Origin: Planctomyces sp.
GTDB lineage: Bacteria > Planctomycetota > Planctomycetia > Planctomycetales > Planctomycetaceae
Assembly (NCBI GenBank): GCA_005791255.1
Contig: SXXK01000076.1
Location: 1 to 32,947 of the forward strand
Direction: 5' to 3'
DNA: 32,947 nucleotides
Of the stretch, positions 7,946-32,529 are shown piece after piece. Under the pieces are notes generated by a model that was not told the DNA's origin, did no database searches, and saw nothing but the letters and a program-made list of their open reading frames with translations. Numbering within the stretch: position 1 is the first letter of the stretch; the number at the start of each line of letters is the position of its first letter. Position numbers and translations under genes: made by a program.

Positions 7946-7962
7946 GCTCTGGAGTTTCCAGC

Positions 7963-10444: not shown

Positions 10445-10548
10445 GACTGCACCTTTGCTGCGTAAACCCTGAGGAAACCACGAAGTGTGGCCGAGTCGCT
10501 GTGCGGGAACCAATGACCTGCGTACCCGCATCCACTTGTTTGTCATGC

Positions 10549-10689: not shown

Positions 10690-10742
10690 AAAAATCCCGG
10701 CCAACCGTTCATAATCCGCAGCGCAGGTGTGTTCAGGCCGGG
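10690..10742 (-). terminator. Candidate terminator after the alpha/beta hydrolase
   Basis: Read on the minus strand, CCCGGCC (10742-10736) pairs with GGCCGGG (10702-10696) and is followed by ATTTTT. The stem is a perfect 7 bp, but the loop is 33 nt, longer than ideal. It begins 4 nt after the hydrolase stop and would end the minus-strand transcription unit. Confidence 0.5.
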
Positions 10743-10746
10743 TGTT

Positions 10747-12783
10747 TCATTTGCCGGCTGTCAGTTTCAGTCGTTCAGAGTTTTCCTGCCAGGCGGGCTG
10801 CAGGCGGCTGAGCAGTTCGTTTGCGGCAGCCGCGTCCAGCGGTTCGCCCTGCGGCGTGACGGGAGCGTGCAGCCGCAAGGGCCGGGGAGCGACCAGTTCA
10901 GCGACATGCACCACGTCTCCGGCGTCCCGCAGAATTCCGGGAACCATATCGGCCAGTCGCTGGCCGACATACGGCTTGTCCGAAACAAAGGTGGTCAGCA
11001 GCCCCGTGATGTCGGCACCGTCGATGTTTTCATCGATGGCGACGGCTGCGATCGCGGCGAAACTGCCGGTTCCGCTGGCGACCAGTTCGATGCTGCTGCA
11101 CGGCAGCTTTTCCTTGAGCAGAGCCGTTGTCAGTCGAATATCGCGAACCCACTGACCGCACAGAGGTCGTCCCATCCAGAGAGACCATTCAGCTGAGTTG
11201 TGGTCGGGAGCTTTGCCGATGCGGTCGCCACTGACCTCCATCCGTCCGGTCGCTCGCAGTTCCAGCACGGCCCAGCCTGTTCCGGCCGCTTCCGCCAGCC
11301 GCTGCTGTTCCCGGACCCACGGGTGATCGCTGCCCTGACCGGTGAGGATGAGTCTGAGCCCGGCGTCGGCGGATTTCGGGTTGCGACCGACCAGCTGCAA
11401 TTGCAGTCCGGCTTCGGGTTTCAGTTGCAGTTCGAACGTTCCGGGGGCGGGTGATGTCAGTTGTCCTGTGCCAGCGCCCGGTTCGGTGCCGCCCAGCAGT
11501 CGTTCCAGTCGCTGTCGCAGCTCAGAGGGTGGCAGCAGTTTACGGGACTGCAGCAGGCCACGGGCTTCGCGGGCCGCGAATTGTGGCAGTGTCAGCCAGT
11601 CGTCGGGGCGAGTTGTGCCGGGGTAGCAGCGGAGTGCTTCCGGTTCTTCGAGAGATATTGGGGGCTCCGGGATCGGCTGCCCGGTGCCCTGCCCTTTCAG
11701 GTGCTGCGTCATAAATCCGTACATGGCTTCCCGCATGGGCTGATTGTAGTCATGGGGCGATTCGACGACGGTGTGTCGCGGAAGATCCGGCAGGTTGTAC
11801 AGGGAAAAGACGGGGCGAGCGGCACTGATGGATTTCGCAGCTTCACCGACGGAGAACTGAAAGGCATCCTGAGTGGCACTGATGATCAGAAGGGCGCGGG
11901 GGGCGGTCAGTGCGAGGATGCGGGATTCTTCGGTCATTGCCAGGGCTCCCGGGACGACCTCGCACATGCAGCAGGCGGCACCGAGGTAAGCCTGGTAAGT
12001 ACCGACCGAGCAGACCGGTGCAACGGCTTTGAATCGTTCATCCCAGGCTCCGGCATACATCGACTGATTGCCGCCGCCGCTGGCTCCGGTAATGCCAATT
12101 CGCTGCGGATCAACTTCGGGGCGTGAGCACAGATAATCGACAGCTCGCCCGTTTTCATAAACCTGAATGCCGCTGAGCGGTCGCCCGATGGGGAACAGTG
12201 TGGCGGCCGTCATTTCGCCATGGTATTCGCCGAGCTGTTCACCGATGGCGCGTTCACCCGCGCCGAAGGCATCGACTGCGAGGACAAAAAAGCCCAGCCG
12301 AGCGAGACCGGCACAGCGTGCCTGGACGTGCGGATCCTGTTTGGCTCCGGCCCAGTGCCCATGGACGCACAGCACTGCCGGCAGCTTTCCGGAGATTTTT
12401 GGAACCCACGCGCTGGCGGTCATGAAAACGCCCGGCAGTGTCTGGAATACAATTTTTTCGATGCGGTAGTCGGGGCGATCGAGCGTTTCGAGGATGCGGG
12501 CTTCCAGGGGCGCGTGCTGCTGCGGGAAGCCACCCCAGGCCAGTTCCAGCTGCTGCCGCAGCAGTGTCCGCTGAGCCTGCCATGCGGCCAGATCGGCCGG
12601 CGGCGCGTCCTGCTTTCGCAATTCAGCCGCCGTCTGTCGGACAAAACTGAGAAACGGTTTTTCGGCAGGTGCCTGCGCGTAAGCCGTGGCGAATATCAGC
12701 GAAGGAAGCAGTGTCTGCAGCAGCAGCACGCATACTGTACTGCGAGCCATCCGACAGCGGACCAACAGGCAATGTGAGGCCAT
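10747..12783 (-). CDS. Secreted two-domain alpha/beta hydrolase (acetyl xylan esterase-like)
   Basis: This 678-residue hydrolase carries an N-terminal signal sequence (basic start, hydrophobic VCVLLLQTLLPSLIFATAYA), so it should be exported. The first half (about 70-370) is an alpha/beta-hydrolase with VLCVHGHW as oxyanion-strand region, nucleophile S235 in GITGASGGGNQ, and probable D306 (ATQDAF) and H344 (ESPHDYNQ). This resembles acetyl xylan esterase or Abhydrolase_7-type enzymes of planctomycetes. The second half (about 430-678) looks like a degenerate hydrolase fold; its VASGTGSFAA turn may replace the nucleophile elbow. ATG 12783 has AAGGAACGAAG upstream; ATG 12750 is possible but lacks one. 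It follows the WD40 kinase by 140 nt on the same strand. The substrate, probably a carbohydrate ester, is unproven. Confidence 0.85.
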   Translation of the reverse strand: MASHCLLVRCRMARSTVCVLLLQTLLPSLIFATAYAQAPAEKPFLSFVRQTAAELRKQDAPPADLAAWQAQRTLLRQQLELAWGGFPQQHAPLEARILETLDRPDYRIEKIVFQTLPGVFMTASAWVPKISGKLPAVLCVHGHWAGAKQDPHVQARCAGLARLGFFVLAVDAFGAGERAIGEQLGEYHGEMTAATLFPIGRPLSGIQVYENGRAVDYLCSRPEVDPQRIGITGASGGGNQSMYAGAWDERFKAVAPVCSVGTYQAYLGAACCMCEVVPGALAMTEESRILALTAPRALLIISATQDAFQFSVGEAAKSISAARPVFSLYNLPDLPRHTVVESPHDYNQPMREAMYGFMTQHLKGQGTGQPIPEPPISLEEPEALRCYPGTTRPDDWLTLPQFAAREARGLLQSRKLLPPSELRQRLERLLGGTEPGAGTGQLTSPAPGTFELQLKPEAGLQLQLVGRNPKSADAGLRLILTGQGSDHPWVREQQRLAEAAGTGWAVLELRATGRMEVSGDRIGKAPDHNSAEWSLWMGRPLCGQWVRDIRLTTALLKEKLPCSSIELVASGTGSFAAIAAVAIDENIDGADITGLLTTFVSDKPYVGQRLADMVPGILRDAGDVVHVAELVAPRPLRLHAPVTPQGEPLDAAAANELLSRLQPAWQENSERLKLTAGK

Positions 12784-12797
12784 GAGTCTTCGTTCCT

Positions 12798-12842
12798 TGT
12801 CAGATCGGTGGGCAGGTGGACTGGCAGAGCAGTAATCTGACA
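12798..12842. promoter_or_regulatory. 8-bp inverted repeat upstream of the hydrolase
   Basis: TGTCAGAT (12798-12805) and ATCTGACA (12835-12842) are exact inverted copies separated by 29 nt. They lie between the kinase stop and the hydrolase start. They could form a leader hairpin or a split operator. No T-run marks a terminator. Confidence 0.3.
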
Positions 12843-12923
12843 GAAGGCAGGCTCGGGCGAAAGTGATCAGACAAGGTCACGGAAAACTGCAGGAGCCGGG
12901 GCCGCCACTGCGGGACGGTCAGT

Positions 12924-15900
12924 TCAGGGGTTGGTCCACAGTGTCAGTCGTCCCGTGGAATCTGCGGAGGCAAGTCGCCCGTCCGGGCCGGTACAGAGGG
13001 CCACGATGCGACCGTCGTGAGGCTGCCCCAAAGAGTTTTCCAGCTGCACGCCCCACCAGATTTTCCGCTGTTCGGCAGAATCGTCGGTCTGGCTGATCGT
13101 GGTGCCGGAATCCAGCGGAGGCAGCAGCCACGTATTGATTCGCGCGTCGATACCACCGGTCATTAGGCGGCCACGCGCTGTGTCGAGGGCCAGAGCTGTG
13201 ATGCCACCGGGCTGCCCATTGTCCGAGTTTGCGGGAATCCGCTCGTTCTCAGGATCATCCTGCAGCACCGCCACCAGTTTAGCCTGACCGCCCTGAAGTC
13301 TCCACACACAGGCTGCACTCAGCAACACGGCATCAGCTGCACGAAACGCCAGACCTCCGGCCGCAAGGACCAGACCATCGTCGGACCAGGTCAGGTCATT
13401 AAAACGACAGTCAAGTCCTGTGGGCAGCTGCAGCAGCACTTCCTCAGGCTTTCCTGCGCCGTCGGCCGTCCCGCTGTCGGCGGCAACCTGCCAGTACCGC
13501 AGTCGCCCCTGCTGCAGTGCGGCAAATCCGGCGCCGTTCGGTCGCCAGGCGACTCGGCTGGCAAAACTCAGAATTCCAAAGTCAGCGGCCCATGCGGGCT
13601 GCGGCTCTGCGATCGCCGGCAGTCGCAGCAGCGATGTCGGCAGCGAATCATCGTGATGCTGCCAGAGTCGAAGGTCACCCGAAAGATCACAACTGAGAAA
13701 CCGCAGGTCACCCGCTGCAGGGCTGAATCGGGCTTCGGCGAGCACCCCCGAATGCATCTCAGTCGCCGGCAGTCGGTACAGTGTTCGCCCTCGGGTTGGC
13801 GAACCGTCCCGTACATCAAATGCCCGCAAAGCATCACTGGCGGTCAGCACACAGGCAGCATCGCTGGAAATGTCGGCAGTGAGCCTGCTGCTGGAGTGCG
13901 TGCGGAATCTGGCGGTCGCTTGACCTGTGGTCAGATCCCACAAAAGTGTTTCACGACCACTGGCAGTGGCAGCCTGCAATGGCTGACCTGCTCCGCCACG
14001 CACTGCGGCTTTGGTGGCTGGTCGCTGGTCGGTCGATACCTGCAGGGACTGGATCGGCTGCCAGTCCGGCCCGCCGAACAGTGTCAGGCGACCACGCTGC
14101 AGCATCAAAACCTGCCGTCCGTCGTCGCTCCATGAAACAGTGGTCTGCAATGGCAGCGCACGGTCGGTGTCCGGCAGAAGCCGATCCTGCAGCAACTGCA
14201 GCAGCCGTCCATCAGCAGCGCGTATGGAGACCTGCAGTCGTGCCGCAGCAGGCTGTTCGTCGCCTGAAATGACGGCATCCTGCTGACCACTTTTTTTCCC
14301 TGTTCCCGCGACAGCCTCGGGCTGCAGGTCAATAACGGCAAACCGACTGCGATCTGCTGCTGGTTCCAGTGCGAGGATCTGTGAGCCTCGCACCAGGACC
14401 GGTCCGGCTTCCAGTCGTTCGCCGTTCAGCTTCCACGATCGCACGCTCCCATCGTAGCCGGCGGTAATCAGCGTGGATTCGTCCTGGAAGAACGCGGCAG
14501 TGATCTGGTCCTCGCGGTGAGATCGCTGCAGGTCAAGCAGACGTCCATCCAGCAGAGACCAAAGCAGCAGCTGCCCCTGACGACAGCCGGCCGCAACGAG
14601 GAGGCCGGAGGGTGACAGGGCCACGGTGGACACCTGCAATGGATTGCTGCCATCGGCATCGGCAGTGGCTGGCTGCAGCACATGCCGTGGCTGAGGCGCA
14701 ACGGATGCTTCGAAATCCGCAGTCCTCCAGACCAGCACGCGGGGAAGCAGTCCTGAATCCGGTTCGGCCGGCCTGCGCAGCACGGCGGCACCCGCGACGA
14801 CCAGGCTGCCGTCAGCTGATACGGCAAAACCGCCTCCGCCGGATCCGGTGATCAGCCGACATTTTTCCTGCCCCATCCCGTCAGCATCCGGCTGAGCATC
14901 CCAGACGCAGATGACTCCCATGGTTTCTGCCGTCAGCAGCAACCCGCTGGGCAGGAAACGCAGAGCAGTGATGTTTGAATTGTGCCCCTCGGTCAGGTAG
15001 CCGGCGGCTGCGGTCAGGGAGCCTGTTTCAGTTTGTTCCCGCAGTGGGTCAGGACGGGCGCTGACGGATAACAGCGGTTGCCCGGTGGGATCGAGAATGT
15101 GTGCGGCGAGGTCGTCGGCTCCGACCAGCAGTCGTCCGTTGTTCGGGCTGAGCTGCAGTGAATAAATACCGGTCCAGCGGCGCTGCTGTGGAGGGGCTGG
15201 AAGGTTGTGTTCGGGCAGAAATGCCCGAACTGCAGTTGGGGTGTGCAGGCTGGCTGGCCTGCGTGCCTGCGGCATGGCGGGTGGTTCGGTCGATTTCAGT
15301 CGTCGAAAGTCGTCCACAAGCCGCCGCAGCGTCTGCACATAGTCGTTGTATTCGGGCAGATTCCAGCGACACACTGTTCGGCTGTCGACACTGGTCAGCA
15401 GACCTGCACGGCCATCAGTAAACGCGGCATCGAGGACCGTTTCGGACTGCCCGGAAACAATCTCGGAGATTCGTCCGCCATTCTGCAGCTGATGCAGGTG
15501 AAAGTCCCGGGCCGGTTCAATTCGACCATCCTGCACATTCCAGACTTCGAGGTTGTCGCGGCGGCGCTGATGACCGGCCACGATTCGCTGACCGTCGATG
15601 GAGACTCGCAAAAATGCCGGCAATTGTTCATCGGCTGACGCGAATGCGGGCAGCGGTGCGGCATCCGTACCGACTGCAAACGGGAACTCGCCGCTGCGCA
15701 GTTCTGATTGCGCCGGCAGCCAGGCGAATGCCCGACGATCACTGCGACTGTTCAGGCCCAGAATCAGTGCCTGGCCATTGTGCGTGATACTGAGCATCAG
15801 GATGGAGGCCGGCAGGAACTGACCGGTACCATCACCGGCAGGCTGCCGGATCCTGAGTTGTCCGATATTGATCCGCGGAACGGTGTCGTCCGCGATTTCA

Positions 15901-18887
15901 GGAAGCGGGCCGGCAGCCCCGGCAGTCAGCGGGAAGGCTCGGATGAAACGATCGCGGCCCTGCGCTGAGTAGTGCAGCAGGAATCGTTCATCGGGCGTCA
16001 CTGCGAAATGCGTGCAGCGATGATCCACTGCGGGATCGGCAAACAGTGCCGTGCTGTGCAGCAGTGACGTCTGGCGGTCACCATTGACATCAAGGATGCG
16101 AAGTGAGGTGATGCGGTCGGCTGCAGCCAGGTACAGCCTCTGTTCGTTGCCGCTGAACACGGCAAAGGCGGTTCGGAAGGGCGTACCGTCGCCAGGTTCT
16201 TCCGGCTGGCTGCGAGGCTGGAACTGACGCTGCGGATTTCGACTGTACAGCAGGACTCGCCCGGTCTTCATCAGCACAGCGGCGTGCTGTCCGCGGGCCG
16301 AAACGATGATGCTGTCCACAGCTCCCGGATCGCTGAAAGCCAGCTGCTGCGGGGCATGATCTGTCTTTGGCATCTGCAGTGTCTCAGAAAACTCAATCGT
16401 GCGTCCGGCCTCGGGTTGCTCAGCCTGTCTCACGATTCGTACCAGTGTGCTGCCGTCGGCACTGAGAGCTGCCAGAGTGGATCGTGCGGGGAATTGTCGC
16501 CGGGCTGAACTGTTCGGTTCTGTGGCCCGCTGTCTGGCCTGTTCCAGTTTTTCACGGATACTGTTGCGAACGGCGTCAGTGAACCATGGATTGGGGCGAC
16601 CGGCTGCGGCTCGCGCTTCCAGTTCCTGCAGGGCGTTTTCAGCGAGCGGAACGACGGCCTGCCATTCCCGCAGGTCCTGCCGAGCTTCCAGCTGCTGGAT
16701 GAGATTGTCGAGGGCGACGCGATCGGCGATGGACTGCTGATTTCGCACTTCGACTGCGGCGGCGGCGACATCGGCCCGGGCCTGCTTCGTCACGGCTTCG
16801 CTCTCAGCAATCACCCGCTGTTTTTCCACATTGGCTGCATCCAGTTCCTGCAACGCCTTTTTCTGGCTTTCTTTGGCGGCATTTGCCGCTTTATCGGCGG
16901 CATCACGAGCCGCGTTGGCGTTGCTGGCCAGCAGTTCTGCCTGAGTCTTTGCTGCAGTGGCCTCCTGTTCGGCCTTCCTGGCGGCCACCTTATCCTGCTC
17001 GGCCTGCTGTCTGGCCCGTTCCGCGTCCTGCTGTCCGGCGACGGCCAGTTTGGCCGCGTTTTCCGCCGTCTGCTTGCGGGACTCAGCCTCGTCCGCCAGC
17101 TGTTCCGCTTCCTGACGTTTGTTAATGGCCTGTTTGATGTCGTCCTGAGCCGAACGAATTTCATCACGAGCGGACTTGAGGTCCAGCTGGAACACCAGAG
17201 TCAGTCCCAGCAGCAGCATAGCCAGTCCGCTGGAGATGAGCCAGGTGGTGCGTACGATGGTGCGGCGACGTCGTCCTGACTGAAGTTGAGAGGCGAGGCT
17301 GGTCAGTTCCGGTTCGGTGCGATCAGCGACGACTTCCAGTCCCAGATCGAAGTCGTTGCGGCGCAGTGCCAGTCTTGCAAAGGCTTCGCGAGCGGCACGG
17401 TCGCCGGTGATCGCTCGCTGATCATTCGGCCACAGACGCAGCGCTTCGGTGAACAGTGCGACGGACTGCTGATACTGGTCGTAGCTGGACGTTCTGTCGG
17501 ATGAATTGCGAGTGGCTGCGAGCAATTCTTCGGCGCGACCAGTGGTGCGGTACTGGCGAATGGCGTTTTGCAGTTCGCCGACGCTGGCGTATCGATCGGC
17601 GGGAGCGGTCGCCATGGCGCGGCGGGCGATCTGCATCAGTTCGCCGGTGTTCTGCACGTCCTGTTCAATCCGATTTTTACGGACGGCGTCGAAGATTGCA
17701 TCACGTCGCTGCCGGGGACCGGAAACGTTTTTCAGGGATTTCAGCAGGTGAGGCGGGAAGCCCTCGAGGATTTCGAACAGGATGGCACCCAGCAGGTAAA
17801 TGTCGGTCTGCGGACAGATACGACGGGTGTCCAAATCAAACAATTCGGGAGCGGCGTAGGCGAGGGTGCCCGCGCAGCCGCGACTGCTGATCAGTACGCT
17901 GTCTCGGCGGGGAAACTTTTCATTGACTATGGCCAGGCCCCAGTCCAGCACGATCACTTCGCCGTATGAACCGACGAAGACGTTCTCCGGCTTAAGGTCG
18001 CGGTTGATCACTCCCAGAGAATGCGCGTAGGCGACGGCGTCACAGACTTTCAGCAGGATGTCGAGATTCTCTTCGCGGCTGAGTTCGGGCATGGCTTTTC
18101 GCCAGTCCCGCCCGGCCACCTGTTTCATGGAGTAGAACAGCTTGCCTTCGGTGTTTCTGCCAAGGTCATGAACAGGAACGATGTTGGGGTGCACGAGGTT
18201 GGCAGTGATGACAGCTTCGGAGACGAACATCTCCTGAGCCGCCACGGGATCATCCTGATTGGGCTTAAGGGTCTTGATTGCCATTTCGCGATTGAGTGAC
18301 GTCTGGCGTGCCCGATAGACAATCCCCATGCCACCCTGGGCGAGGGTGCCAAGAATCTGATATTCCGGTGCACTGCTGGCCTGAGCGATGGCTGCGGCAA
18401 CAGGTGAAGTCCCCAGTGTCGCGTCATTGAGTCGGTTGACGATGCCTGACAGCTGGCCTTCGACGTTGTGCGAATGGATCCGCAGGTTCCATGTGCTGCG
18501 GGACGATCCGTCCGTGCTGTCGGCCGATTCAGAGGCCAGCTCGGTGTCCAGTTCTGCCGCGGACTTTTGCCCGGGGGTGATAATGAGCGTTGCTTCGTCA
18601 TCGGCCTGGGGCAGCGAACGCTGTGGCGGAGCGGTGACGACCAGATCATCGGCGGGGCCCGAAGCGATGGTGGCGTCGGCATCAGCAGCCTCAGACGGTG
18701 GCTGTGAATCGCGGATGGTGGCCAGCGGATCGAGGTGAATTTCCAGCGGCGGCGGGTTGGCCCCTGGTGTCGGTCCCTGTTCCGTCGCGAGGGCGTCGGC
18801 ATCGGAAAACGGCGTGACATCGGTGGACAGCTCGTTCGGCTCCGGCGGCCGCTGGTTGTGCGGCTGATTCTGATCCTGTCCGGCCAT
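12924..18887 (-). CDS. Giant membrane Ser/Thr kinase with coiled coil and WD40 propellers
   Basis: This is a 1,987-residue Hanks-type kinase. Residues 1-174 are Pro/Asp-rich and carry [ADE]-T-[IL] motifs (T57, T73, T100, T157). The kinase domain (about 175-440) has AQGGMGIVYRA, K205 (MAIK), D297 in INRDLKPEN and D315 in VLDWGLA; thus HRD is replaced by NRD and DFG by DWG. Four arginines (539-542) precede one membrane span (about 549-570), suggesting the kinase is inside. An Ala/Glu/Gln/Lys coiled coil (about 573-745) follows, then about 1,170 residues of WD40-type beta-propeller. I count about twelve W-bearing blade ends (for example VICVWDAQ, TLLWDLTTG, LRLWQHHDD, LTLWTNP), enough for two propellers. 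AGGG lies about 10 nt before the ATG. The giant repeat protein gene ends 64 nt upstream. Confidence 0.93.
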   Translation of the reverse strand: MAGQDQNQPHNQRPPEPNELSTDVTPFSDADALATEQGPTPGANPPPLEIHLDPLATIRDSQPPSEAADADATIASGPADDLVVTAPPQRSLPQADDEATLIITPGQKSAAELDTELASESADSTDGSSRSTWNLRIHSHNVEGQLSGIVNRLNDATLGTSPVAAAIAQASSAPEYQILGTLAQGGMGIVYRARQTSLNREMAIKTLKPNQDDPVAAQEMFVSEAVITANLVHPNIVPVHDLGRNTEGKLFYSMKQVAGRDWRKAMPELSREENLDILLKVCDAVAYAHSLGVINRDLKPENVFVGSYGEVIVLDWGLAIVNEKFPRRDSVLISSRGCAGTLAYAAPELFDLDTRRICPQTDIYLLGAILFEILEGFPPHLLKSLKNVSGPRQRRDAIFDAVRKNRIEQDVQNTGELMQIARRAMATAPADRYASVGELQNAIRQYRTTGRAEELLAATRNSSDRTSSYDQYQQSVALFTEALRLWPNDQRAITGDRAAREAFARLALRRNDFDLGLEVVADRTEPELTSLASQLQSGRRRRTIVRTTWLISSGLAMLLLGLTLVFQLDLKSARDEIRSAQDDIKQAINKRQEAEQLADEAESRKQTAENAAKLAVAGQQDAERARQQAEQDKVAARKAEQEATAAKTQAELLASNANAARDAADKAANAAKESQKKALQELDAANVEKQRVIAESEAVTKQARADVAAAAVEVRNQQSIADRVALDNLIQQLEARQDLREWQAVVPLAENALQELEARAAAGRPNPWFTDAVRNSIREKLEQARQRATEPNSSARRQFPARSTLAALSADGSTLVRIVRQAEQPEAGRTIEFSETLQMPKTDHAPQQLAFSDPGAVDSIIVSARGQHAAVLMKTGRVLLYSRNPQRQFQPRSQPEEPGDGTPFRTAFAVFSGNEQRLYLAAADRITSLRILDVNGDRQTSLLHSTALFADPAVDHRCTHFAVTPDERFLLHYSAQGRDRFIRAFPLTAGAAGPLPEIADDTVPRINIGQLRIRQPAGDGTGQFLPASILMLSITHNGQALILGLNSRSDRRAFAWLPAQSELRSGEFPFAVGTDAAPLPAFASADEQLPAFLRVSIDGQRIVAGHQRRRDNLEVWNVQDGRIEPARDFHLHQLQNGGRISEIVSGQSETVLDAAFTDGRAGLLTSVDSRTVCRWNLPEYNDYVQTLRRLVDDFRRLKSTEPPAMPQARRPASLHTPTAVRAFLPEHNLPAPPQQRRWTGIYSLQLSPNNGRLLVGADDLAAHILDPTGQPLLSVSARPDPLREQTETGSLTAAAGYLTEGHNSNITALRFLPSGLLLTAETMGVICVWDAQPDADGMGQEKCRLITGSGGGGFAVSADGSLVVAGAAVLRRPAEPDSGLLPRVLVWRTADFEASVAPQPRHVLQPATADADGSNPLQVSTVALSPSGLLVAAGCRQGQLLLWSLLDGRLLDLQRSHREDQITAAFFQDESTLITAGYDGSVRSWKLNGERLEAGPVLVRGSQILALEPAADRSRFAVIDLQPEAVAGTGKKSGQQDAVISGDEQPAAARLQVSIRAADGRLLQLLQDRLLPDTDRALPLQTTVSWSDDGRQVLMLQRGRLTLFGGPDWQPIQSLQVSTDQRPATKAAVRGGAGQPLQAATASGRETLLWDLTTGQATARFRTHSSSRLTADISSDAACVLTASDALRAFDVRDGSPTRGRTLYRLPATEMHSGVLAEARFSPAAGDLRFLSCDLSGDLRLWQHHDDSLPTSLLRLPAIAEPQPAWAADFGILSFASRVAWRPNGAGFAALQQGRLRYWQVAADSGTADGAGKPEEVLLQLPTGLDCRFNDLTWSDDGLVLAAGGLAFRAADAVLLSAACVWRLQGGQAKLVAVLQDDPENERIPANSDNGQPGGITALALDTARGRLMTGGIDARINTWLLPPLDSGTTISQTDDSAEQRKIWWGVQLENSLGQPHDGRIVALCTGPDGRLASADSTGRLTLWTNP

Positions 18888-18951
18888 AACTTTGTTACCC
18901 TGGGAATTGCGATGAAAGCTTCAGTGTGGTCAGAACTTCGAGCGTCAGTTG

Positions 18952-24900: not shown

Positions 24901-27900
24901 ATTCTCGATGGTCAGATTTCCGGAACCACCGGCGACAGCAGTGTCAAGGAAAATCGGCGCCGATTCGCCGATTACCGCAATATTGCCTTCCTGTGAGGTA
25001 ATTTTATGGATTTCTGCAGATGCATTTGATCTCAGTGTGACGGAGCCGGTGCCTGTGGACACGGTCGAATAAACAGCTGCGGTGTTGCTGGTCAGGCTGA
25101 TGTCGCCGTTGAGCGATTCCGCGGAGACAGTTCCGGCATTGAGTCTGAGCGGTGCAGTATTGCCGATGCCGGTGGCAGCGCGCATCGCGAGGAATCGAGC
25201 GGTGAGTTCGGAGCTGCCATTGATTGATCCTCCGAGTGCGGAGACGGTCAGGCTGTCAGTTGCCCGCACCGTGCCGTTGAGGCGGATTTCGCCTGAGGTA
25301 TTCCCGGCGGAGAGTGTCATATCACCGTTGGCCGCAGTTCCGCCGGCTTCGATCAGAGAGGCCGTTGTCGTCAGCAGATCGCCCGTGCCGTCGTCGCCGG
25401 CGGAAATTTTGACCAGCCTGTTTGCCGCGATGTGGCTGTTGATTGTGATGTCATCGGCTGCGGAGATGGTAATGTTGTCGGGGTCAACCGGGGCATCAAC
25501 GACGATGTCAGCGCCGGATGTGAGGACAATGTTTCCCTGGGTCAGGACCTTTCCGCTGACACGCAGCCTGCCGCTGGCGTCGAGCATCAGGTTGCCTGTG
25601 GCCAGTGACGATGCGAGGGCTGTACCGCTGCCGTCCAGGTCCTGCAGCTCGACATCGCCGGCGGCGATGATCTGCAGGTCTGCTGCAGACCGAGCGTCAA
25701 GCCTGCCTGGCTGATTGGCCGAGGGGCCATTCAGCTCGATGCGAATCTGCTCCGACTGGCCGGACTCGAGCAGCAGGTTGCGGGCTGTGAGTCGTGTGCC
25801 GCTGGTGCCGCCGTCAAGGTCGGCGGCCGAGATCCTGAGATTGCCGGTGACGGCAACGGGGTTCTGCAACGTCAGCGTTCCGGGTCCGCCGCCGTCCGAC
25901 CCCGCCAGCAGTGCAAGGTTTGTCACCAGCGGCAAGGCCGGTGTCGAGAACACAATATTCTGATCGGACATCAGGAACAGGGTTTCGGCAGCGAGCGAGC
26001 CTGTGCCGTTGATACTGCCGCGGAGCGCCGCGAAGGACTGAGCCTGAACGGTGAGCGTTCCGGTGAGGTCAATTTCAAGCCCGTCGGGCAGATCTGTAAA
26101 AAAGTTGTTGACTGCTGTGCCGATGTTCGCCGCGGTGAGCGTGAGGTTGTTCGCAGTAATATTGAGTGTGCGCGCAGTGCTGTTGTCATTGGCGTCAATG
26201 ATATCGCCGGAGACGGAGACAGCGACCACATTTCCGTTCGTTGTCAGTCGGGACAGGAAGATGCTGCGACTGGCCTGCAGGGAAATGAATCCGTTGCCGG
26301 CGGTGAGACTGGCGTCCTGATCGAGGACGATATCGTCAGTGAAGGCGTTGAGCACAATGCTGCCGAATTGACCGGTTGTGACGTCTCCTGCAGCTTCAGC
26401 AAAGACTCGTGAGCCGTTCAGCGTGATGAATCCGGAGTCTGATGTGATGCTCCTTCTGAGGATCAGCTGTTCGGCAGCTCGCAGGGCAATATTTCCGGCA
26501 TTGGCAGCATGCACTTCGGCTGCCGCATCGATGGGACCGGCGTCAGTCGTCAGCTCAATGTTGCCGGCGGCGTTTGCTGTACGCAGCCCCATGCCATGCA
26601 GGCGGACCGAGCCGATGGAGCGGAGATGAATGCTGCCAAATGTGGATGAAGCTTCCAGTGCGGTGACATTCAGATTGATGTCTTCGGCGGGGGCGGGTCC
26701 ACCGATGCTGGCGGTGGCGAACAGGCTGACGGTGCCGGCAGTCGTCAGGTTGGGGTTTTCGCTCAGCGAATTGTCCACAATCGCTCCGGGGGTCAGTGTT
26801 CCGCCGGCGCTGAGCACCATGGAGCCATCGACACTGGCGAGACTGGCGATGCGAATATCACCGGTGGCCTGCAGCGAGATTTTCCCGTGATGTGCGTTGA
26901 TCGTCGTACCATCGTCCTGAGTGATGGAATTGCCGAGGCCGCCCTGACTGCCGAAGAATGGAGCCCCCGCCTGCAGCGTGATCGTACCGCCGTCGAAGGT
27001 TCTGACCACACTGCCGGAACGCTGCTGCAGATCGCCATCGGCCTGCAGCCAAATGTCGCCGCGGGAATGATTCACGACATCCGTGTCCAGCAGCACTTTG
27101 CCCGCAGACGTCAGTCTGATGCCTGCTGGAGCGGCTGTGCCACTGGTATTTCTGATCACCAGTCCACTGCGGTTCAGCACATTACCGACGCTGATTGAAT
27201 TCAGTGCTGCCAGCTGGATTGCAGCATCATCAGACTGTGCCGCCAACTGCAGCTCGATGCCGTCCAGTTCAAGCGGGTTCCCGGCACTGCCGATGCGGTG
27301 CACGGCCGCAAGCGCGATGGCCGTGCTGTGCAGGTCCGCTTCGGGATCATCGTCGGCTTCGGTGATGCTGTCCGCAGAGTCTGCCAGGATGCTCTGCCCT
27401 GCCGCGACGGCGTCGAGGACGATCGAACCGGTTTCGATTGTGTGCAGGAAGACGGAGCCCTGTGGGGCGGTGATCTGGCCGGCTGTCAGCTGGCCACGCG
27501 TAATTTCAATGGAAAGGTGGCCCTCCCCGGTGCTGGCGACCTGAACCTCCGTCGGCCCGAAGCCGCGAAAATCGATCGAGCCGGCTCCGCTCGTCAGGCT
27601 GGAAGCAATCGCAGGCTGGTTGCTGACGATGCCGATGTCGCCGGTCTGAGTGTCAGCCGACAGACTGTTGACGAGCACATGCAGCGGCTGCTTGTTGCCG
27701 ATCCCGGTACCGGCGTCGATATCCAGAATGCCTGATTCCAGTTGAGCAGTACCATTGACGGAACCGGAGGCTGCGGCGATGACCAGCAGCGATCCGGCCT
27801 GCACTGTTCCCTGCAGCTGAATGTTTCCGCTGTTCTGTCCGGCGGTCAGGCGGATGGTGCCTGTTCCGGCACTGCTGCTGCCTGCCTGCATGCCCGCCTC

Positions 27901-30900
27901 TGCTGTGGCCTGCAGATCGCCGCTGCCGTCGCTGCCAGCCGAGACGCTGATCAGGCTGGTGGCCTGCAGCTGCCCGCTGATGGTGATGTCATCGGCTGCC
28001 GTGATGGTGATGCTGGTGGGATCAATGGCGTCGTTGATGACGATGTCGGCGCTCGAAACGAGCACGACGTCTGAGCCGGTGAAGATTTTGCCATCGACAC
28101 GGATGGCTCCGTCGGCCTGCAATTTCAGGCTGCCGGTGCCGGAAGTGGATGCCAGGGCCTGCCCGCTGCCATCGAGATCTCGCAGCTGAACTGCGGTGCT
28201 GGCGGTAATGTCCAGTGCGCCGCCGGAGCGGGCATCGAGGCTGCCGCGCTGGCCGGTGCCGGGGTCATTGAGTGTCAGCCGTACGGACTCGGACTGACCT
28301 GACTGCAGCAGCACATTGCGGGCGGTCAGGTTGATTCCCGGGCTGCCCGCGTCAATGTCTGCACCGGAGATTCGCAGGTCGCCGGAGACTGCCACAGGTG
28401 TGCTGAAAAACAGTGTGCCGTTATTGTTTCCATCCACATCAGCCAGCAGTGCGAGGTTGGTGACGGAGGGATTGACTGTCGAGAAGCCGAGGTTGCCGGC
28501 GGACATCAGAAACAGGGTTTCTGCTTCCAGCAGGTCGGTGCCTGCGATGGAACCCTGCAGCGCGGCAAACTGCTGCACAGAGACGCTCAGGTTTCCGGAA
28601 ACGCTGACTTCCAGCGCATCCGGCAGCCCTGTGAAAAAATCCACCGGTCGCTGCTCGATGGAGTCTGCTTTCAGTTTCACGTTGGCAGCGGTGATATTGG
28701 TGCGTTTCGTTGTTGGCGTGTCATTGTTGTCAATCAACCGTCCCTGAGCGGCGGTGATGCTGACGTTCCCCGCCGTATTCAGATCGGAAACAAGCACCTG
28801 TGTGGCCGCCTGCAGTGTGATGTCGCCGTTTTGTGCGTTGAATGCGACTTCTGAGTTCATCAGGATTTCGCTGTTCAGTGCCTGCAGGCTGATGGAACCA
28901 TCGCCGCCGGTGGAAATGTTGCCGGCCACTTCCGCCTCGATGCGGCGTGCTGCCAGCCGAATACTGCCGGCTTCCGACGTGATTCCGAATCGCGTCTTAA
29001 GATCGCCGGCCGCGGTGAGATTGATGCGGCCGATGCCTGCTGCCTGGATGCGACCCTCGACCTCGATCCCGCCCGCAGCGGTGGTGACCAGAATGTCACC
29101 GGCGCCACCCAGGGTCTGGAGGCCGCTTTTGTGGATCCGCAGAAAATCCGCGGAACGCACATAGATACCACCGGAGCCGGCCGTCGCCTGCAGGCCGAAG
29201 ACCTGCACGTTCAGATCCTGCTGCGAATTCGGGCCGCCGATGTTGGTGCTGGCACGCAGGGTCAGCAGGCCGTTCGTCGCCAGATTCAGAGTTTCCTCGA
29301 CGGAATTGTCGACAATGCTGCCGATTGCCCCGCCATTGCCGGCTTCGATCGAGATGTCACCGGAAAGGCTGAGGACCTCAGCCAGCACCACATCGCCGGC
29401 GGCACGCAGCGAAATCTGACCCTGCTGACTGCTGATCACGGCGCCTTCAGTCATCTGGATGCTGCCGGGAAGGGAGCCCTGCTGACTGACCCCGGCGATC
29501 AGGCTGATGAGTCCGTTGCCACCTGTGACGATGCGGGTCGGAGCTTCCTGGAAAATGTCCTGCCCGGCTGTCAGGGCCACGTGGCCGTGGGCCAGGTTTT
29601 CGATGCTGCTGACCACGGAAATCACACCACCGGCACCGAGGCTGATGGAGGTTGCGGGATTCATGTCACCCGGATCGCTGATCCTCAGTCCCTGAAATTC
29701 AGCGACCTGTCCCACAAAGACGTTTTCCAGAGCCTGCAGGTGGATGTCACCGGTGGCAGTCAGAGCGGCCAGTGTCAGGTCAATGCCGTCGACTTCGATG
29801 GCGCCGGCGGCCGTTCCGATACCTGTGACTGCCTGAATCGCGATCTGATGTCCCCGCAAATCAGCGTCGGGATCATCATCAAGCTCAGCCACCGCCCTGC
29901 CGGACTGGATTCTGATCTGACCACCGGCGATTGCATTGCCGACGAGGACGAGGCCCTGACCGCCACTGAGCAGGACGATGTTGCCGACTTCTGTGATGGC
30001 CTGTTGAACTTTCAGATCACCGTCAACTGTGCTGAATCTGAGACTTCCGGTCCCTGCGAAAGCCGACACGAAATCCGCCGACGGTTCACTTTCGACGATG
30101 ATGCTGCCGCTGCCGGACGACAGGCTGGTGTAAGTCGCGGCGAGGGTGTTTTTCAGGAAAATTCCGTTCGTCACACTGTCAGCGTCGATCGTGGCAGCCC
30201 TGATTCGCAGCGGTGCCGGATTGCCGATGCCGGCCAGGGAGCGCAGGCTGAGCTGTGGTGCGGACAGTTCGGTGCTGCCGTTGATCGAACCACCTGTGGC
30301 CGTGACTGTGATGGCTCCCCGGGCCCGCACTGTTCCATGCAGCTCGGTATTGCCCGCCTGGTCACCGGATCGCAGCAGCATCACACCGGGTATCCCGGGA
30401 ACTCCGGCTTCCACGAAGGCGGTGCTGGTGGTGAGCAGGCTGCCGGTGCCATCGGTACCGGCGACGACCTGCAGAGATGTGGCAGCGGAAACGGCGCCGG
30501 AGATCACGAGGTCGTCAGCGGCCGTGAGCGTGACAGTGTCCGGATCAATGACTCCGAAAACTCGCATGCTGCCACCCGCAGACAGACTGATGCTGCCGGC
30601 AGCTGAGACTTTGCCCTGAACAAGAACGTCGCCGGCTGCTGTGAGTTTCAGGCTGCCGCCTGGGACGGTGGACTGCAGGGCCTGGCCGTTGCCGTCAAGA
30701 TCGGCCAGTGCAACGGCCGAGTCGGCGGTGATCTCCAGATTCCCGGTCACGCGGCCATCAAACTGACCGGGTTGGCCGGTCTGGCCGGGCAGCAGGTTCA
30801 GATGCACGTCCTCAGACTGCCCCGAAACAAACAGAATGCGGCCGGCGGAGAGATCGATGGTGCCGTCGCTGGCCTGCACATCAGCCCCCTGAATCAGCAG

Positions 30901-32172
30901 GCTTTCCGGGAGTGACAACTGGTCACCGATCAGCACCGTCCCGCTGCCGTTGCCATCCAGGTCTGCGATCAGTGCCAGGCCCTGCAGGCTGGACTGAGCC
31001 GCGCGAGTGAAGTCAACGTCGTTCAAAGATGCCAGTGTCAGGTCGTGAGCCTGCACAGCGAGCTGACCATCGATGCGCCCTGAGAATGCAGCAAAGCCGG
31101 GGGCTGTGGCGGTCAGATTGCCGGACAGCAGTACATCAATATGGTTGCGGAACAGTGGAAACGGATTGGGGCCGGAGGAGCCGATATCCTGACCGATCTG
31201 CAGAAACAGATCGCGGGCCTGAATATTGGTCTGGATACCGGCGAGGTCATTGCCGTCGATCAGGCTGCCACCGTCGACCTGCAGCCGTACGGAACGTCCG
31301 ATGTTCTCGATACGACCGATGGTCAGATTGCCGGGTGTGCCGGTTTCCGTGATGTCGATGGTGCCTTCGCTGGTGTTGATGGCGGTCAGTGACCGCACAT
31401 CGGTTTCCAGAGTATCCGCGTTGCCGATGCCTTTGGTGGCGGTGATGTCCAGCAATTCGCCGCGGAATGAGACCTGTTCGATCTGTCCATCCAGAATCTC
31501 GGCCAGTGATTTGACCTGAATCCAGCTGCGGGAATCAACGCGTCCGGCGACCAGAACGTCACCGCCGGCATCGAGCTCCACGGATTTGCCGTGCACGATG
31601 CCGCCGATGTCGATGCGTCCGGCGGCTGTCACACGGATCTGGTGATCGGGAGCGTCGAGGATTGGGTTGGGGCCGCGGGTGGCGTGTGTCAGGAGGACAT
31701 TGCCGTCCGAGTGAATGCTGAACTGAGCGGCGGTGGAGCCGGTTGACAGGCTGATGGCATCGTTCACAAAGACATCGACGTCGCCCTGGGGGGATTCGGC
31801 GAAAATCGAGAGATTGCCGGACTGGCCGGGGCCCTGCAGCAGTGACTCCTGCACGGACAGCAGTGTGCCGTTGTTGAGGATGGAGATACCGGGGGCGGTG
31901 TTGCCAATCCATTCCCCCATGCCGCTTCCCAGCTGGAACTGCAGTTCCCCGGGACCTTCGCTGACCTGCAGGGCTCCGGGGGCCGTGAAGTTGTCCACAG
32001 TCAGCCCGGCGGCGTTCAGCACAAAGCTGGCATTGAAGACGCGGCGATCTTCGAGTCGAGTGAAGCGGATGGGGCGTGCGGCAGGTCGCGGAACGGCAGC
32101 GGCGGCCGGCTGTTCGCGACGCTCGCCCTTCAGCAGCTGCAGCACCTGAGTAAGAAACGTACGTAAGCTCAT
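18952..32172 (-). CDS. Giant beta-helix-type repeat protein with RLEDRR N-terminal motif
   Basis: This protein has 4,406 residues from the chosen ATG at 32172, which has GGAAAGG about 11 nt upstream. The N-terminus has a basic stretch and FTRLEDRRVFNASF (about 37-50), the planctomycete LEDRR/LEPR-type motif of giant exported proteins. Most of the chain (about 60-4000) is short beta-strands with repeated phrases such as GDxxLxA, ITAADDITI and GIGN, like filamentous-haemagglutinin or adhesin beta-helices. Four super-repeats carry acidic DLDGxGxAL loops at residues 491, 1332, 2178 and 2820. I saw no cysteine. The last 400 residues differ: a GNGNGPGNGN-type linker, a Pro/Gln-rich stretch, a small mixed domain around VTEDIYEVRQ (about 4282-4375) and a Pro-rich end PPQPPQPPGKS. 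No PEP-CTERM, autotransporter barrel or dockerin end is visible. Function is probably surface-structural or adhesive. Confidence 0.9.
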   Translation of the reverse strand: MSLRTFLTQVLQLLKGERREQPAAAAVPRPAARPIRFTRLEDRRVFNASFVLNAAGLTVDNFTAPGALQVSEGPGELQFQLGSGMGEWIGNTAPGISILNNGTLLSVQESLLQGPGQSGNLSIFAESPQGDVDVFVNDAISLSTGSTAAQFSIHSDGNVLLTHATRGPNPILDAPDHQIRVTAAGRIDIGGIVHGKSVELDAGGDVLVAGRVDSRSWIQVKSLAEILDGQIEQVSFRGELLDITATKGIGNADTLETDVRSLTAINTSEGTIDITETGTPGNLTIGRIENIGRSVRLQVDGGSLIDGNDLAGIQTNIQARDLFLQIGQDIGSSGPNPFPLFRNHIDVLLSGNLTATAPGFAAFSGRIDGQLAVQAHDLTLASLNDVDFTRAAQSSLQGLALIADLDGNGSGTVLIGDQLSLPESLLIQGADVQASDGTIDLSAGRILFVSGQSEDVHLNLLPGQTGQPGQFDGRVTGNLEITADSAVALADLDGNGQALQSTVPGGSLKLTAAGDVLVQGKVSAAGSISLSAGGSMRVFGVIDPDTVTLTAADDLVISGAVSAATSLQVVAGTDGTGSLLTTSTAFVEAGVPGIPGVMLLRSGDQAGNTELHGTVRARGAITVTATGGSINGSTELSAPQLSLRSLAGIGNPAPLRIRAATIDADSVTNGIFLKNTLAATYTSLSSGSGSIIVESEPSADFVSAFAGTGSLRFSTVDGDLKVQQAITEVGNIVLLSGGQGLVLVGNAIAGGQIRIQSGRAVAELDDDPDADLRGHQIAIQAVTGIGTAAGAIEVDGIDLTLAALTATGDIHLQALENVFVGQVAEFQGLRISDPGDMNPATSISLGAGGVISVVSSIENLAHGHVALTAGQDIFQEAPTRIVTGGNGLISLIAGVSQQGSLPGSIQMTEGAVISSQQGQISLRAAGDVVLAEVLSLSGDISIEAGNGGAIGSIVDNSVEETLNLATNGLLTLRASTNIGGPNSQQDLNVQVFGLQATAGSGGIYVRSADFLRIHKSGLQTLGGAGDILVTTAAGGIEVEGRIQAAGIGRINLTAAGDLKTRFGITSEAGSIRLAARRIEAEVAGNISTGGDGSISLQALNSEILMNSEVAFNAQNGDITLQAATQVLVSDLNTAGNVSITAAQGRLIDNNDTPTTKRTNITAANVKLKADSIEQRPVDFFTGLPDALEVSVSGNLSVSVQQFAALQGSIAGTDLLEAETLFLMSAGNLGFSTVNPSVTNLALLADVDGNNNGTLFFSTPVAVSGDLRISGADIDAGSPGINLTARNVLLQSGQSESVRLTLNDPGTGQRGSLDARSGGALDITASTAVQLRDLDGSGQALASTSGTGSLKLQADGAIRVDGKIFTGSDVVLVSSADIVINDAIDPTSITITAADDITISGQLQATSLISVSAGSDGSGDLQATAEAGMQAGSSSAGTGTIRLTAGQNSGNIQLQGTVQAGSLLVIAAASGSVNGTAQLESGILDIDAGTGIGNKQPLHVLVNSLSADTQTGDIGIVSNQPAIASSLTSGAGSIDFRGFGPTEVQVASTGEGHLSIEITRGQLTAGQITAPQGSVFLHTIETGSIVLDAVAAGQSILADSADSITEADDDPEADLHSTAIALAAVHRIGSAGNPLELDGIELQLAAQSDDAAIQLAALNSISVGNVLNRSGLVIRNTSGTAAPAGIRLTSAGKVLLDTDVVNHSRGDIWLQADGDLQQRSGSVVRTFDGGTITLQAGAPFFGSQGGLGNSITQDDGTTINAHHGKISLQATGDIRIASLASVDGSMVLSAGGTLTPGAIVDNSLSENPNLTTAGTVSLFATASIGGPAPAEDINLNVTALEASSTFGSIHLRSIGSVRLHGMGLRTANAAGNIELTTDAGPIDAAAEVHAANAGNIALRAAEQLILRRSITSDSGFITLNGSRVFAEAAGDVTTGQFGSIVLNAFTDDIVLDQDASLTAGNGFISLQASRSIFLSRLTTNGNVVAVSVSGDIIDANDNSTARTLNITANNLTLTAANIGTAVNNFFTDLPDGLEIDLTGTLTVQAQSFAALRGSINGTGSLAAETLFLMSDQNIVFSTPALPLVTNLALLAGSDGGGPGTLTLQNPVAVTGNLRISAADLDGGTSGTRLTARNLLLESGQSEQIRIELNGPSANQPGRLDARSAADLQIIAAGDVELQDLDGSGTALASSLATGNLMLDASGRLRVSGKVLTQGNIVLTSGADIVVDAPVDPDNITISAADDITINSHIAANRLVKISAGDDGTGDLLTTTASLIEAGGTAANGDMTLSAGNTSGEIRLNGTVRATDSLTVSALGGSINGSSELTARFLAMRAATGIGNTAPLRLNAGTVSAESLNGDISLTSNTAAVYSTVSTGTGSVTLRSNASAEIHKITSQEGNIAVIGESAPIFLDTAVAGGSGNLTIENGNGDLQINNLQAVDNRIVIAAGSVSELLSDSAADLTASRILLQTTAGVGTSGKALDLTGSGLQLTAATQSGSLLLAAAGSVMLSSSDGIDGLQLGSAGQATGDPNGPLLSLTATGDMTISAAVRNSLGGDVRLLADGQILQQAQALVTAINAGSIQVQARGNGSGIRMNSGSTMQAGDGQIRLTADSDIQLALLQSTGAVTVQSTSGGIVDNNDDGGIARSNVVAKDLLLQAIFVAGPPADFFNGLPQPLELSLTGRLSVEASDYAVLQGTSFETDSLRAETLFLISDDHLTISGTDPNQLGSLALIADADNDGVGTITLRQPVMVADKLRLQAQSITAGSQVIDLSARQILVRSGSAQLLQITPTPSGGDGPEQFDGRTGGALSVLAKGSLNLVDLDGDSRALTADGDIMVNARNQLATGSDVIATGSAELTADGRLQVDAAVRGTELRLTSANDDARISGSLLGSQSVSLRAGLGTAGGIAVTSTGRIIAGNSTSTGTIQLSSGSITGDQLLEGRLEAGERITVDAPGGRISGTGQLLAPDVVLNAGTGIGSNLPLQLTASRITAESADGVVHLTNSRDGQFTRLAAREGAVIVTGHGNTLIDDALTVNGSISLTAIDGDLTVRVARQQNSGSISLATLSSGTVRVGQLRSPETLSITAASSIEELQSDSDNDLEASSMALQARTGIGTSANSIELGGPNLRLAALSQSGGIFLTSSEETTISDVADLSGLQIADSSPQVAGNIQFTSRGSMTIASSVVNSSGGNITLQSGNHLRVLPSVAISTVGSGTLTLRAGERPAGDISINFGSLSLENDTVISTEHGNITLTAAASVTLYRVQSIDGDLLIRAAVTNSEGRLEGDSSQDSAHISTRGFTSLFAGTTDANYVASLTVDVGSLEGTWSGGSLRLNSVGPLTIDGSGLRTSGPRGDIDVLVNRGELTVAGEVSAASSGQIRLISEDGVKLLSSGRISATGDGSVFVSAETGSVLMHATAGITSENGDVTITAADNLQISRILSQLGSLTLTAIGGAISDATPDETLNLATAGSIWLRAGSGIGGRLSGQDLNLSAGQLDAVSGSNGIHLTSPGSLIITRQGLISSGTNADIQVRSAGQLFAQRTLRSDTGDVTVSASGIVLETDSEILALAGHVLVTAESEGLFMAAGSGGIQGSGNVTVRAASDLVAGRIAAGNTLTVTSLTGTITDNNDTSNEQLLNLSGDAVILDAAAGIGAEDALEISARTATAVNRTSGDVRLVQVASAGNLGLQLIDNGDRLVSLTVAGGALTDANDSSTIARLNLQAGEARLTARQGIGPGNALETRIATLTGMVTDGGNIELHELDSLQIDSLQLTGPGSILIQADQDLLVQDRVQALPPAVGSAGGRPQIRLAAAENLRLAAGAQVTSAASHDIIIAAVLDVSMQTGSSVKSAGGDLLISTDAQHRGHVLVQTLETSGTRISISAGGDIRIGDAAAVRLLATNGDPTRSEQIVIDAAGDIRVADGVLMTTDGDPTARASANQTDDRLLLFARGRTAGSNQPLDSAVGRVQFDGRVTLRTDGGVATTFLGRPAANATTTTAFFDASKAETSPQGRLIFPGLLRPDPNGGARGGSPGDISVQIVFEVQITSGSSPGVPAEENLRLDIDWRDPSDSQPSTLYVNPGRQQLGHSYSLNELLRFLDTGKSQFLVDFSVSHHESIRVFGGEVQQGAAFSAVPVGRVRNPVTGSDLTTGLISSSDGAATGALQPGQPSGPRDVFSDQNSNADFHFDGAVVRIQVPVSPFAGGPFNGNGNGPGNGNRGNGDSDQAPFQRPPRRAFIPLVQQQPPAKVQAKPQADFQPAAAPLILSNNSVQQEAAQEDSLAVTEDIYEVRQSEQGRYTVLRQLDKFEQGEELLNPQALKAWVFRQSQQIERPLLDGEDYELWLVTKKRTAAGSVVRIERQLLMFDVIEGQPFPARDDQAPDQPETLPQLQAVPPEPLPPQPPQPPGKS
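19505..19580 (-). repeat. Gly/Asn low-complexity linker in the giant protein
   Basis: The encoded segment alternates Gly and Asn (FNGNGNGPGNGNRGNGDSDQ). It separates the beta-repeat part from the Pro/Gln-rich tail. It is a probable flexible linker. Confidence 0.6.
22700..24177 (-). repeat. Giant-protein super-repeat, copy 4
   Basis: This copy begins at FFNGLPQPLEL. It retains AETLFLIS, LALIADADND, RSGSAQLLQI, DLDGDSRAL (residue 2820), GRISGT, GIGSNLPL and DSDNDLEAS. The end is approximate; the NLAT-type block continues below 22700 in a rearranged order. Confidence 0.7.
24178..26103 (-). repeat. Giant-protein super-repeat, copy 3 (shortened)
   Basis: This copy begins at FFTDLPDGLEI and spans 1,926 bp. 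It keeps AETLFLMS, LALLAGSDGG, SGQSEQIRI, DLDGSGTAL (residue 2178), GSINGS, GIGNTAPL and DSAADL. It lacks the roughly 200-residue NLAT/GLxT block of copies 1 and 2 and passes directly to VDNNDDGG. Confidence 0.85.
26104..28638 (-). repeat. Giant-protein super-repeat, copy 2
   Basis: This copy begins at FFTGLPDALEV and spans 2,535 bp. Landmarks occur in the same order as in copy 1: AETLFLMS, LALLADVDGN, SGQSESVRL, DLDGSGQAL (residue 1332), GSVNGT, GIGNKQPL, DDDPEADL, NPNLTTAG and IDANDNSTAR. Confidence 0.85.
28639..31164 (-). repeat. Giant-protein super-repeat, copy 1
   Basis: This module runs from the NPFPLFRNHIDVLLSG segment to the next FF-G-LP segment, 2,526 bp. It contains ordered landmarks: LALIADLDGNG, SGQSEDVHL, DLDGNGQAL (residue 491), GSINGS, GIGNPAPL, DDDPDADL, ETLNLAT and IDNNDTPTTK. 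It is the most diverged copy in its first 200 residues. Confidence 0.8.
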
Positions 32173-32529
32173 CTGTGGAACTGCCTTTCCGACTGACGCT
32201 GTGTCTGGCCGGGGCCGGACACAGCATGCCGAAGGAGTGTGATGATCAGTCGCTTCCAGGAAGAATGCGAAGTATGGGTAATATTTCCTGATTTTCGACG
32301 GCCAGCGGGACTTTCTGTGCCGGCGAACTGCAGAAAGATTGAGGATTTGACGGGAGAAATCGAACGGGATGCGTCTTGACAGCCAGGCCAGCCGCAATCC
32401 GCATTTTCAAGGTCTGTTCCTGCAGATCGATCCAACCCTGACATTCGCTTTTGTCGAAATAACCGGAAAATGGCGGGGAAGTCGAACAGCCATAACTCTG
32501 CAGTTACAAAGTCACACAGGGGCACTTTG
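32173..32529. promoter_or_regulatory. Divergent regulatory region of giant protein and secreted protein genes
   Basis: This 357-nt gap separates the giant gene (minus) from a secreted-protein gene (plus), so both promoters should be inside. I found a strong palindrome near the giant start (listed separately). A TTGACA occurs at 32376-32381 on the plus strand but has no acceptable -10 at 16-18 nt. No other gene is evident. Confidence 0.55.
32198..32225. promoter_or_regulatory. 13-bp-arm palindrome before the giant gene
   Basis: GCTGTGTCTGGCC (32198-32210) and GGCCGGACACAGC (32213-32225) are inverted copies with one T-G wobble and two central bases. In the minus-strand transcript this hairpin ends 7 nt before the GGAAAGG ribosome-binding site (32190-32184). 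It could be an operator or a translation-controlling leader hairpin. Confidence 0.55.

Follow-up and report, generated by a model that had tools for sequence, protein, structure and literature searches.

Planctomycetes encode transmembrane Ser/Thr kinases in which a cytoplasmic kinase domain is followed, mostly via one transmembrane (TM) segment, by a C-terminal periplasmic array of WD40 repeats (PMC11032199). Separately, "giant genes" of more than 5 kb (Reva and Tummler 2008, as cited in PMC5177795) are widespread in the phylum and have predicted roles in adhesion or at the cell surface (PMC5177795). Prior to this work, the role of the planctomycete giant genes and of the WD40 membrane kinases was mostly unexplained for either. 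Here, we describe a planctomycete locus in which a gene of each kind stands next to the other. Its kinase matches the architecture of the published ones, with the kinase domain inside and the WD40 array, in this case by prediction, in the periplasm. However, PMC11032199 covers the kinases alone, and the words giant, adjacent, neighbor and upstream are absent from it, whereas the kinase considered here has a conserved and dedicated partner gene. Similarly, PMC5177795 nowhere uses the word kinase, whereas in this case one subset of the giants is defined by its constant kinase partner.

Two further classes of proteins bear comparison with this locus. The PASTA-type receptor kinases (PknB/Stk1) have in common with the kinase a cytoplasmic Ser/Thr kinase domain, one TM segment and an extracytoplasmic sensor; in contrast to them, it displays WD40 propellers in place of the PASTA repeats and is encoded together with a giant partner. 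It scores 189.4 of the 450 bits that define membership in the PASTA kinase family (NF033483). The filamentous hemagglutinin-type adhesins of two-partner secretion (TPS) systems resemble the giant in their long repetitive body and its modeled β-helix, and one giant homolog gives a weak match to the 20-aa fil_hemag repeat, but the neighbor of the giant is a kinase rather than a TpsB-like transporter. The parts are of known kinds, as exemplified by the one-TM receptor Ser/Thr kinase, and the giant partner is the new element. Consistent with the first-pass annotation of this DNA, which knew of no described system with such a composition, our search of the open literature recovered the components separately but no description of the giant–kinase pair; subscription journals were outside its scope, and an earlier mention there is possible. 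Through the conserved one-to-one pairing, an orphan receptor kinase gains a candidate partner, and a giant surface protein a candidate role in signaling.

Gene layout and transcription signals

The window, i.e., the whole stretch of 32,947 nt analyzed here, is an entire contig (C11) of a Planctomyces sp. assembly of 5.58 Mb in 542 contigs. The first-pass annotation had placed three minus-strand genes in a row in it, coding for a giant repeat protein, a WD40 kinase and an α/β hydrolase (Table 1). The open reading frames bear out this arrangement, with gaps of 64 nt between the giant and the kinase and 140 nt between the kinase and the hydrolase, and so do the domains, with strong E-values for the kinase and WD40 regions and a hydrolase match exceeding the Pfam cut-offs. 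An alternative start of the giant at an upstream TTG (32397) would add 75 aa; the ortholog in genome G126 has an identical MSLRTFL start at the ATG.

Table 1. Features of the locus, in positions of the window
Feature	Position	Strand	Details
Terminator-like hairpin 3′ of the hydrolase gene	10690–10742	minus	not significant
Hydrolase ORF	10747–12783	minus	678 aa
Kinase ORF	12924–18887	minus	Ser/Thr kinase-TM-WD40, 1,987 aa; comes second in the pair
WD40 β-propeller ectodomain of the kinase	12927–16505	minus	residues 795–1987; AlphaFold2 mean pLDDT 81
Single TM segment of the kinase	17184–17252	minus	basic flank on the kinase side; hydropathy 2.05
Juxtamembrane TPR-like segment of the kinase (YQQSVALFTEALRLWPN...)	17253–17570	minus	conserved across the kinase family
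Protein kinase domain	17589–18362	minus	residues 176–433, predicted cytoplasmic; PF00069, E 1.7e-29
Giant repeat protein ORF	18952–32172	minus	4,406 aa from the ATG at 32172; first gene of the pair
Small β-β-α-β-β C-terminal domain of the giant (YELWLVTKK ... ERQLLMFDVIEGQPFPA)	19057–19332	minus	
Ig-like β-sandwich after the last β-helix coils of the giant (EENLRLDIDWRD)	19585–20187	minus	AlphaFold2 model
Basic N-terminal leader of the giant, ending FTRLEDRRVFNA	32029–32172	minus	LEDRR/LEPR-type planctomycete motif

The same annotation had noted a terminator-like hairpin after the last gene only. Such a hairpin (CCCGGCC/GGCCGGG at 10742, with a loop of 33 nt and a following ATTTTT) is indeed present there, and nothing of a comparable kind is found in either intergenic gap, but it is no better than chance: the minus strand has four hairpins of equal quality as against about 2.2 in shuffled sequences, and the folding z-score is −0.44. 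As both its frequency and its folding match chance expectation, we do not count it as evidence of a transcript end and reject it as a mark of one. A scan for promoter consensus sequences found none separating the genes, which is uninformative as planctomycete promoters may deviate from the consensus. About 35 nt 5′ of the giant ATG lies a strong imperfect palindrome (GCTGTGTCcggccccggccaGACACAGC, 32195–32235), and the corresponding upstream site in G126 has a different sequence that is likewise palindromic (TCTGGCCAGA). Elsewhere in the window, the plus strand codes for another Ser/Thr kinase, with TPR repeats (407–3511), a peptide chain release factor (7909–9039) and a DJ-1/PfpI protein (9071–9649), and the minus strand for an amidohydrolase (5887–7257) and a peptide methionine sulfoxide reductase (9860–10546).

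Conservation of the giant–kinase pair across genomes

The linkage between the giant and the kinase is strongly supported. A giant directly upstream of a kinase-TM-WD40 gene on the same strand was observed at 63 loci in 58 genomes, these being the loci that were inspected rather than a random sample, with many metagenome assemblies and some single-contig genomes among their sources. The first-pass annotation had stated that its proposal would be refuted if relatives did not conserve the pair, and against this test the giant and the kinase held up. Most of the loci belong to the family of the window (apparently Planctomycetaceae), and three come from other families of the same class (G429, G514 and G488; L231–L233). 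The partner kinases range from about 1,700 to 2,350 residues, while the gap between the two genes has a median of 95 nt, being at most 200 nt in 54 of the 60 loci measured and giving way to an overlap in 13 of the 60. The cultured strain Thalassoglobus neptunius KOR42 carries the pair, as do single-contig genomes. Among the records of metagenome-assembled genomes with loci from this planctomycete family, several (L120, L127, L138, L145 and L161) bear the title Candidatus Kuenenia stuttgartiensis, which is probably a misnomer.

Starting from the giant, a profile of the two C-termini from the window's genome gave matches in 34 of the 170 genomes of the order, and a better giant profile (from alignment A3) extended these to 43 of the 170, all within the window's own family. 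In the DNA downstream of these matches, a same-strand kinase adjoins the giant in nearly every locus that is long enough, the exceptions being G121, where a SelB-like gene comes next, and genus g49, where another giant does. The giant profile also matched weakly in a different family (G399, locus L110), with no pair there, and this match was treated as chance.

A kinase-first scan of the GTDB species genomes, which was independent of the giant, named 80 loci, the nearest of them in Planctomycetaceae, Fuerstiella and Thalassoglobus neptunius KOR42. Among the 25 kinase ORFs with a full-model score above 1,700 bits, 24 have a giant directly upstream, with L113, the kinase of G121, as the exception; in the same list, none of the 26 assessable kinases lacking WD40 repeats has an upstream ORF of more than 1,000 aa. 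A profile of the ectodomain detected a related WD40 kinase in 111 of the 170 genomes of the order, and 40 of these loci were fetched. Whenever such a locus included its 5′ side, the upstream ORF was again a giant, the longest exceeding 3,900 aa, except in L204, L226, G121 and genus g49; L230, with its split kinase, was left out. About ten kinase loci are without an adjacent giant, and seven of these belong to one genus. As for more distant WD40 kinases, L155, L159 and L185 keep an upstream giant and L157 (5552–13831, 2,759 aa) is without one.

Duplication, shared descent and unlinking

A kinase search of the window's own genome returned 41 matches, one other of which was near full-length. This second kinase, on contig C364, is 41% identical to the first over residues 173–1985, and directly upstream of it, at a distance of 171 nt, the contig contains the 3′ portion of a giant whose C-terminus is 40% identical to that of the window giant. 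The diverged second pair (L011) occupies 688–9576 of C364, with its giant running off the contig at the 5′ side. Two pairs are also present in G011, G014 and G019.

Trees of 28 giant C-termini and of their partner kinases show a distance correlation of r = 0.91, as against at most 0.31 in 2,000 permutations, and share 18 of 25 splits. These trees show that the partners have not been swapped; they do not imply physical contact, because vertical inheritance of linked genes produces the same match. On similar grounds, the pair might be viewed as an ancient gene order without function, its adjacency merely never having been broken, and vertical inheritance alone would indeed account for the matching trees. 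However, the genes 3′ of the pair have been shuffled from one genus to the next, the gaps within it are short and sometimes replaced by overlaps, and the pair has been duplicated as a unit, all of which makes this explanation highly improbable.

In two lineages, G121 and genus g49, the genes have become unlinked and yet both have been kept, which argues for a functional tie that goes beyond linkage. G121 carries its giant and kinase apart. In g49, the kinases (L216, L218–L221, L223 and L224) mostly follow a FabH-like gene (KAS III, β-ketoacyl-ACP-synthase-III-like), and a giant with a similar C-terminus is found elsewhere in the genome, followed by another LEDRR-type giant (L101 and L102).

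A tie of a looser kind would be coupling of expression only, with the kinase acting as a general sensor of envelope or secretion stress that is co-transcribed with a costly giant and makes no contact with it. A pairing of that sort would be just as conserved and adjacent, and the WD40 ectodomains are diverse, as might be expected of a general sensor; however, the paralogous pairs diverge together, and the unlinked lineages keep both genes. Hence, we consider this account unlikely. The pair is adjacent, on the same strand and sometimes overlapping across many genera, and it descends and duplicates together. As it has stayed together across many genera, its distribution suggests that the kinase serves the cell in monitoring the giant or in controlling it.

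Architecture of the kinase

Judging from the conserved residues, the catalytic core of the kinase is complete: K205, E224, D297, K299, N302 and D315 are invariant across the 28 homologs of alignment A4, and all catalytic residues are retained, with NRD standing for HRD and DWG for DFG. Together with this intact Pkinase domain, the single TM segment with a basic kinase side and the C-terminal propellers give it all the hallmarks of a WD40-ectodomain Ser/Thr kinase. The 28 aligned kinases share one conserved TM segment that comes after a basic stretch of the RRxRxIRxTW type. As the basic stretch precedes the TM segment, the positive-inside rule predicts that the WD40 part faces outward, in line with the orientation initially put forward for the window kinase; the topology is read from hydropathy and this rule rather than from a dedicated predictor.

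Between the TM segment and the propellers is an Ala/Glu-rich stretch resembling a coiled coil. In Foldseek searches, the ectodomain recovered a propeller protein with an E-value of 9e-26, along with many multi-propeller proteins. At the other end, the N-terminus of the kinase is disordered and in several homologs displays repeated motifs of the T-W/F-V-P type, for instance in L060 (about four copies), L071, L066 and residues 12–32 of the window kinase. These motifs could plausibly serve as autophosphorylation or docking sites.

Architecture of the giant protein

The window giant has no Pfam match above the cut-offs and no NCBIfam match. Long internal repeats run through it, with segments of ~300–400 aa that are 25–54% identical to one another (E-values down to 1e-91). 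At its N-terminus, it has a basic leader with an LExRR(V/L)LNA-like motif, and we take motifs of this LEDRR/LEPR type to be a mark of planctomycete giant exported proteins; since NCBIfam gave zero matches on this N-terminus, the assignment to that type rests on the motif. Every giant start that was read opens with such a basic leader and continues into LEDRR(V/L)LNA or a variant thereof; this was seen at the 13 fetched giant N-termini, among which the motif varies, and likewise in L155, L185, L194, L208, L211, L228 and L232–L236. The giant is probably exported, and no known secretion signal or transporter was found beside its gene. Two-partner secretion of the filamentous hemagglutinin type was considered and rejected, as the whole giant gives no match to TPS or hemagglutination-activity domains in Pfam and NCBIfam up to an E-value of 0.1. 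So was a classical autotransporter, for which Pfam shows no C-terminal β-barrel match and the modeled C-terminus consists of Ig-like, linker and α/β regions instead.

In the AlphaFold2 models, this C-terminal part comprises, in order, the Ig-like sandwich (pLDDT mostly 63–93), a disordered linker and the small α/β domain (pLDDT about 70–92). VIA-align gave Z-scores of 5–6 for the C-terminal model against Ig-like domains and 7.6 for model residues 1–346 against a tailspike (β-helix). These values lie under the caution line of Z 8, where common arrangements also score, and the alignments hardly touched the small last domain. Foldseek found no match at E ≤ 0.001 for the C-terminal end, including the small domain, and profile searches of Pfam and the PDB with this domain yielded chance-level matches only. 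It belongs to the best-conserved regions of alignment A3. Distant giants have a C-terminal domain of similar layout, which is alike by eye and in topology; hhalign between the small domain of the window's group and that of the remaining giants gave a probability of 7.9%, too low to establish homology.

The repeat body of the giants differs between genera. It is β-helix-like in the window's group, whereas 11 cadherin stretches are found in L185, laminin-G plus cadherin in L232, DUF5649 in L233 and PATR in L155. The recurring parts are the leader, an acidic linker and, usually, a basic tail. The linker, located before the C-terminal tail, has a median charge of −13, and the C-terminus has a net charge of at least +3 in 47 of 59 giants as compared to 1 of 59 of their kinases. 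In the majority of the giants, a short hydrophobic stretch leads into an Arg-rich basic tail with Ser/Thr residues, often of the form SRAARLxRK. This CTERM/LPXTG-like combination of a hydrophobic stretch and a basic cluster is found in most homologs but not in the window giant; the basic tail is absent from the latter, its two orthologs and L228. The combination of a variable body with recurring ends and a kinase suggests the modular evolution of a sensing adhesin.

Possible modes of action of the pair

We propose that the giant and the kinase form a dedicated pair of surface protein and receptor kinase that senses from the outside in, a reading which, taken as a whole, we regard as evenly poised between right and wrong. 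The giant would be exported to the envelope or the surface of the cell, and its repeats might there touch other cells, a polymer or some surface. Its near-C-terminal region would remain by the inner membrane and be bound there by the WD40 propellers of the kinase, such that the kinase would change when the giant assembles, is occupied or is lost, and would then phosphorylate cytoplasmic targets. In most homologs, the hydrophobic stretch and the Arg-rich tail may anchor the end of the giant beside the kinase. As the window giant is without the basic tail, such an anchor cannot be the general mechanism, and this giant would depend on its remaining C-terminal domain. Further points against the reading are the kinase loci with no adjacent giant, the low hhalign probability for the small C-terminal domain, and the fact that searches turned up no known export route.

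The basic tail is also the basis for a serious rival to this reading, namely control from the inside out, wherein the kinase regulates the export, processing or anchoring of the giant, for example by phosphorylating a cytoplasmic Arg-rich tail, and the WD40 propellers read some other periplasmic signal. The tail present on most giants carries Ser/Thr residues that make it a plausible target of a cytoplasmic kinase, and the unlinked g49 giants retain it. Nevertheless, the pair has been kept where the tail is missing (in the window giant, its two orthologs and L228), the Ser of the tail is frequent rather than invariant, and the hydrophobicity of the adjoining stretch is marginal, so that we rate control of this kind as rather unlikely overall.

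Under the outside-in sensing that we favor, the two genes could represent a class-wide system for contact sensing, in which a genus-specific giant body is coupled to a constant C-terminal module that plugs into the propeller receptor kinase. We advance this extension tentatively, as a somewhat doubtful generalization. Its working would be like that of integrin/cadherin outside-in signaling, with parts that are unrelated.

The hydrolase and other genes 3′ of the pair

The product of the third gene is an exported α/β hydrolase resembling acetyl-xylan esterases (Pfam AXE1/Abhydrolase_7), which the first-pass annotation had included in one unit with the pair. It could in principle be a functional third component, e.g., one modifying a sugar ligand of the giant, as it is on the same strand at a distance of 140 nt with no strong terminator in between. 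However, its close relatives in G128, G126, G125, G011 and G013 are on contigs other than that of the pair, and an ortholog follows no other pair, with L196 having merely a 31%-identical hydrolase. Moreover, the gene downstream of the pair varies by genus and is a different one even at the second pair of the window's genome. As the relatives keep the pair without an adjacent hydrolase ortholog, the inclusion of the hydrolase did not hold and the three-gene unit is rejected; we see scarcely any likelihood of such a function, and by these sequence comparisons the esterase is a chance neighbor outside the conserved unit.

More generally, what lies downstream of the kinase is conserved within small clades but not from genus to genus. 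The largest recurring 3′ family is found at seven loci of one sub-clade, which includes the second pair of the window's genome, and consists of Cys-rich exported proteins that combine a YHS domain with a HEAT-like part (L011, 1–480; L046, 10317–11576; L047, L048, L049, L051 and L061). In that sub-clade, this exported protein is a possible third component.
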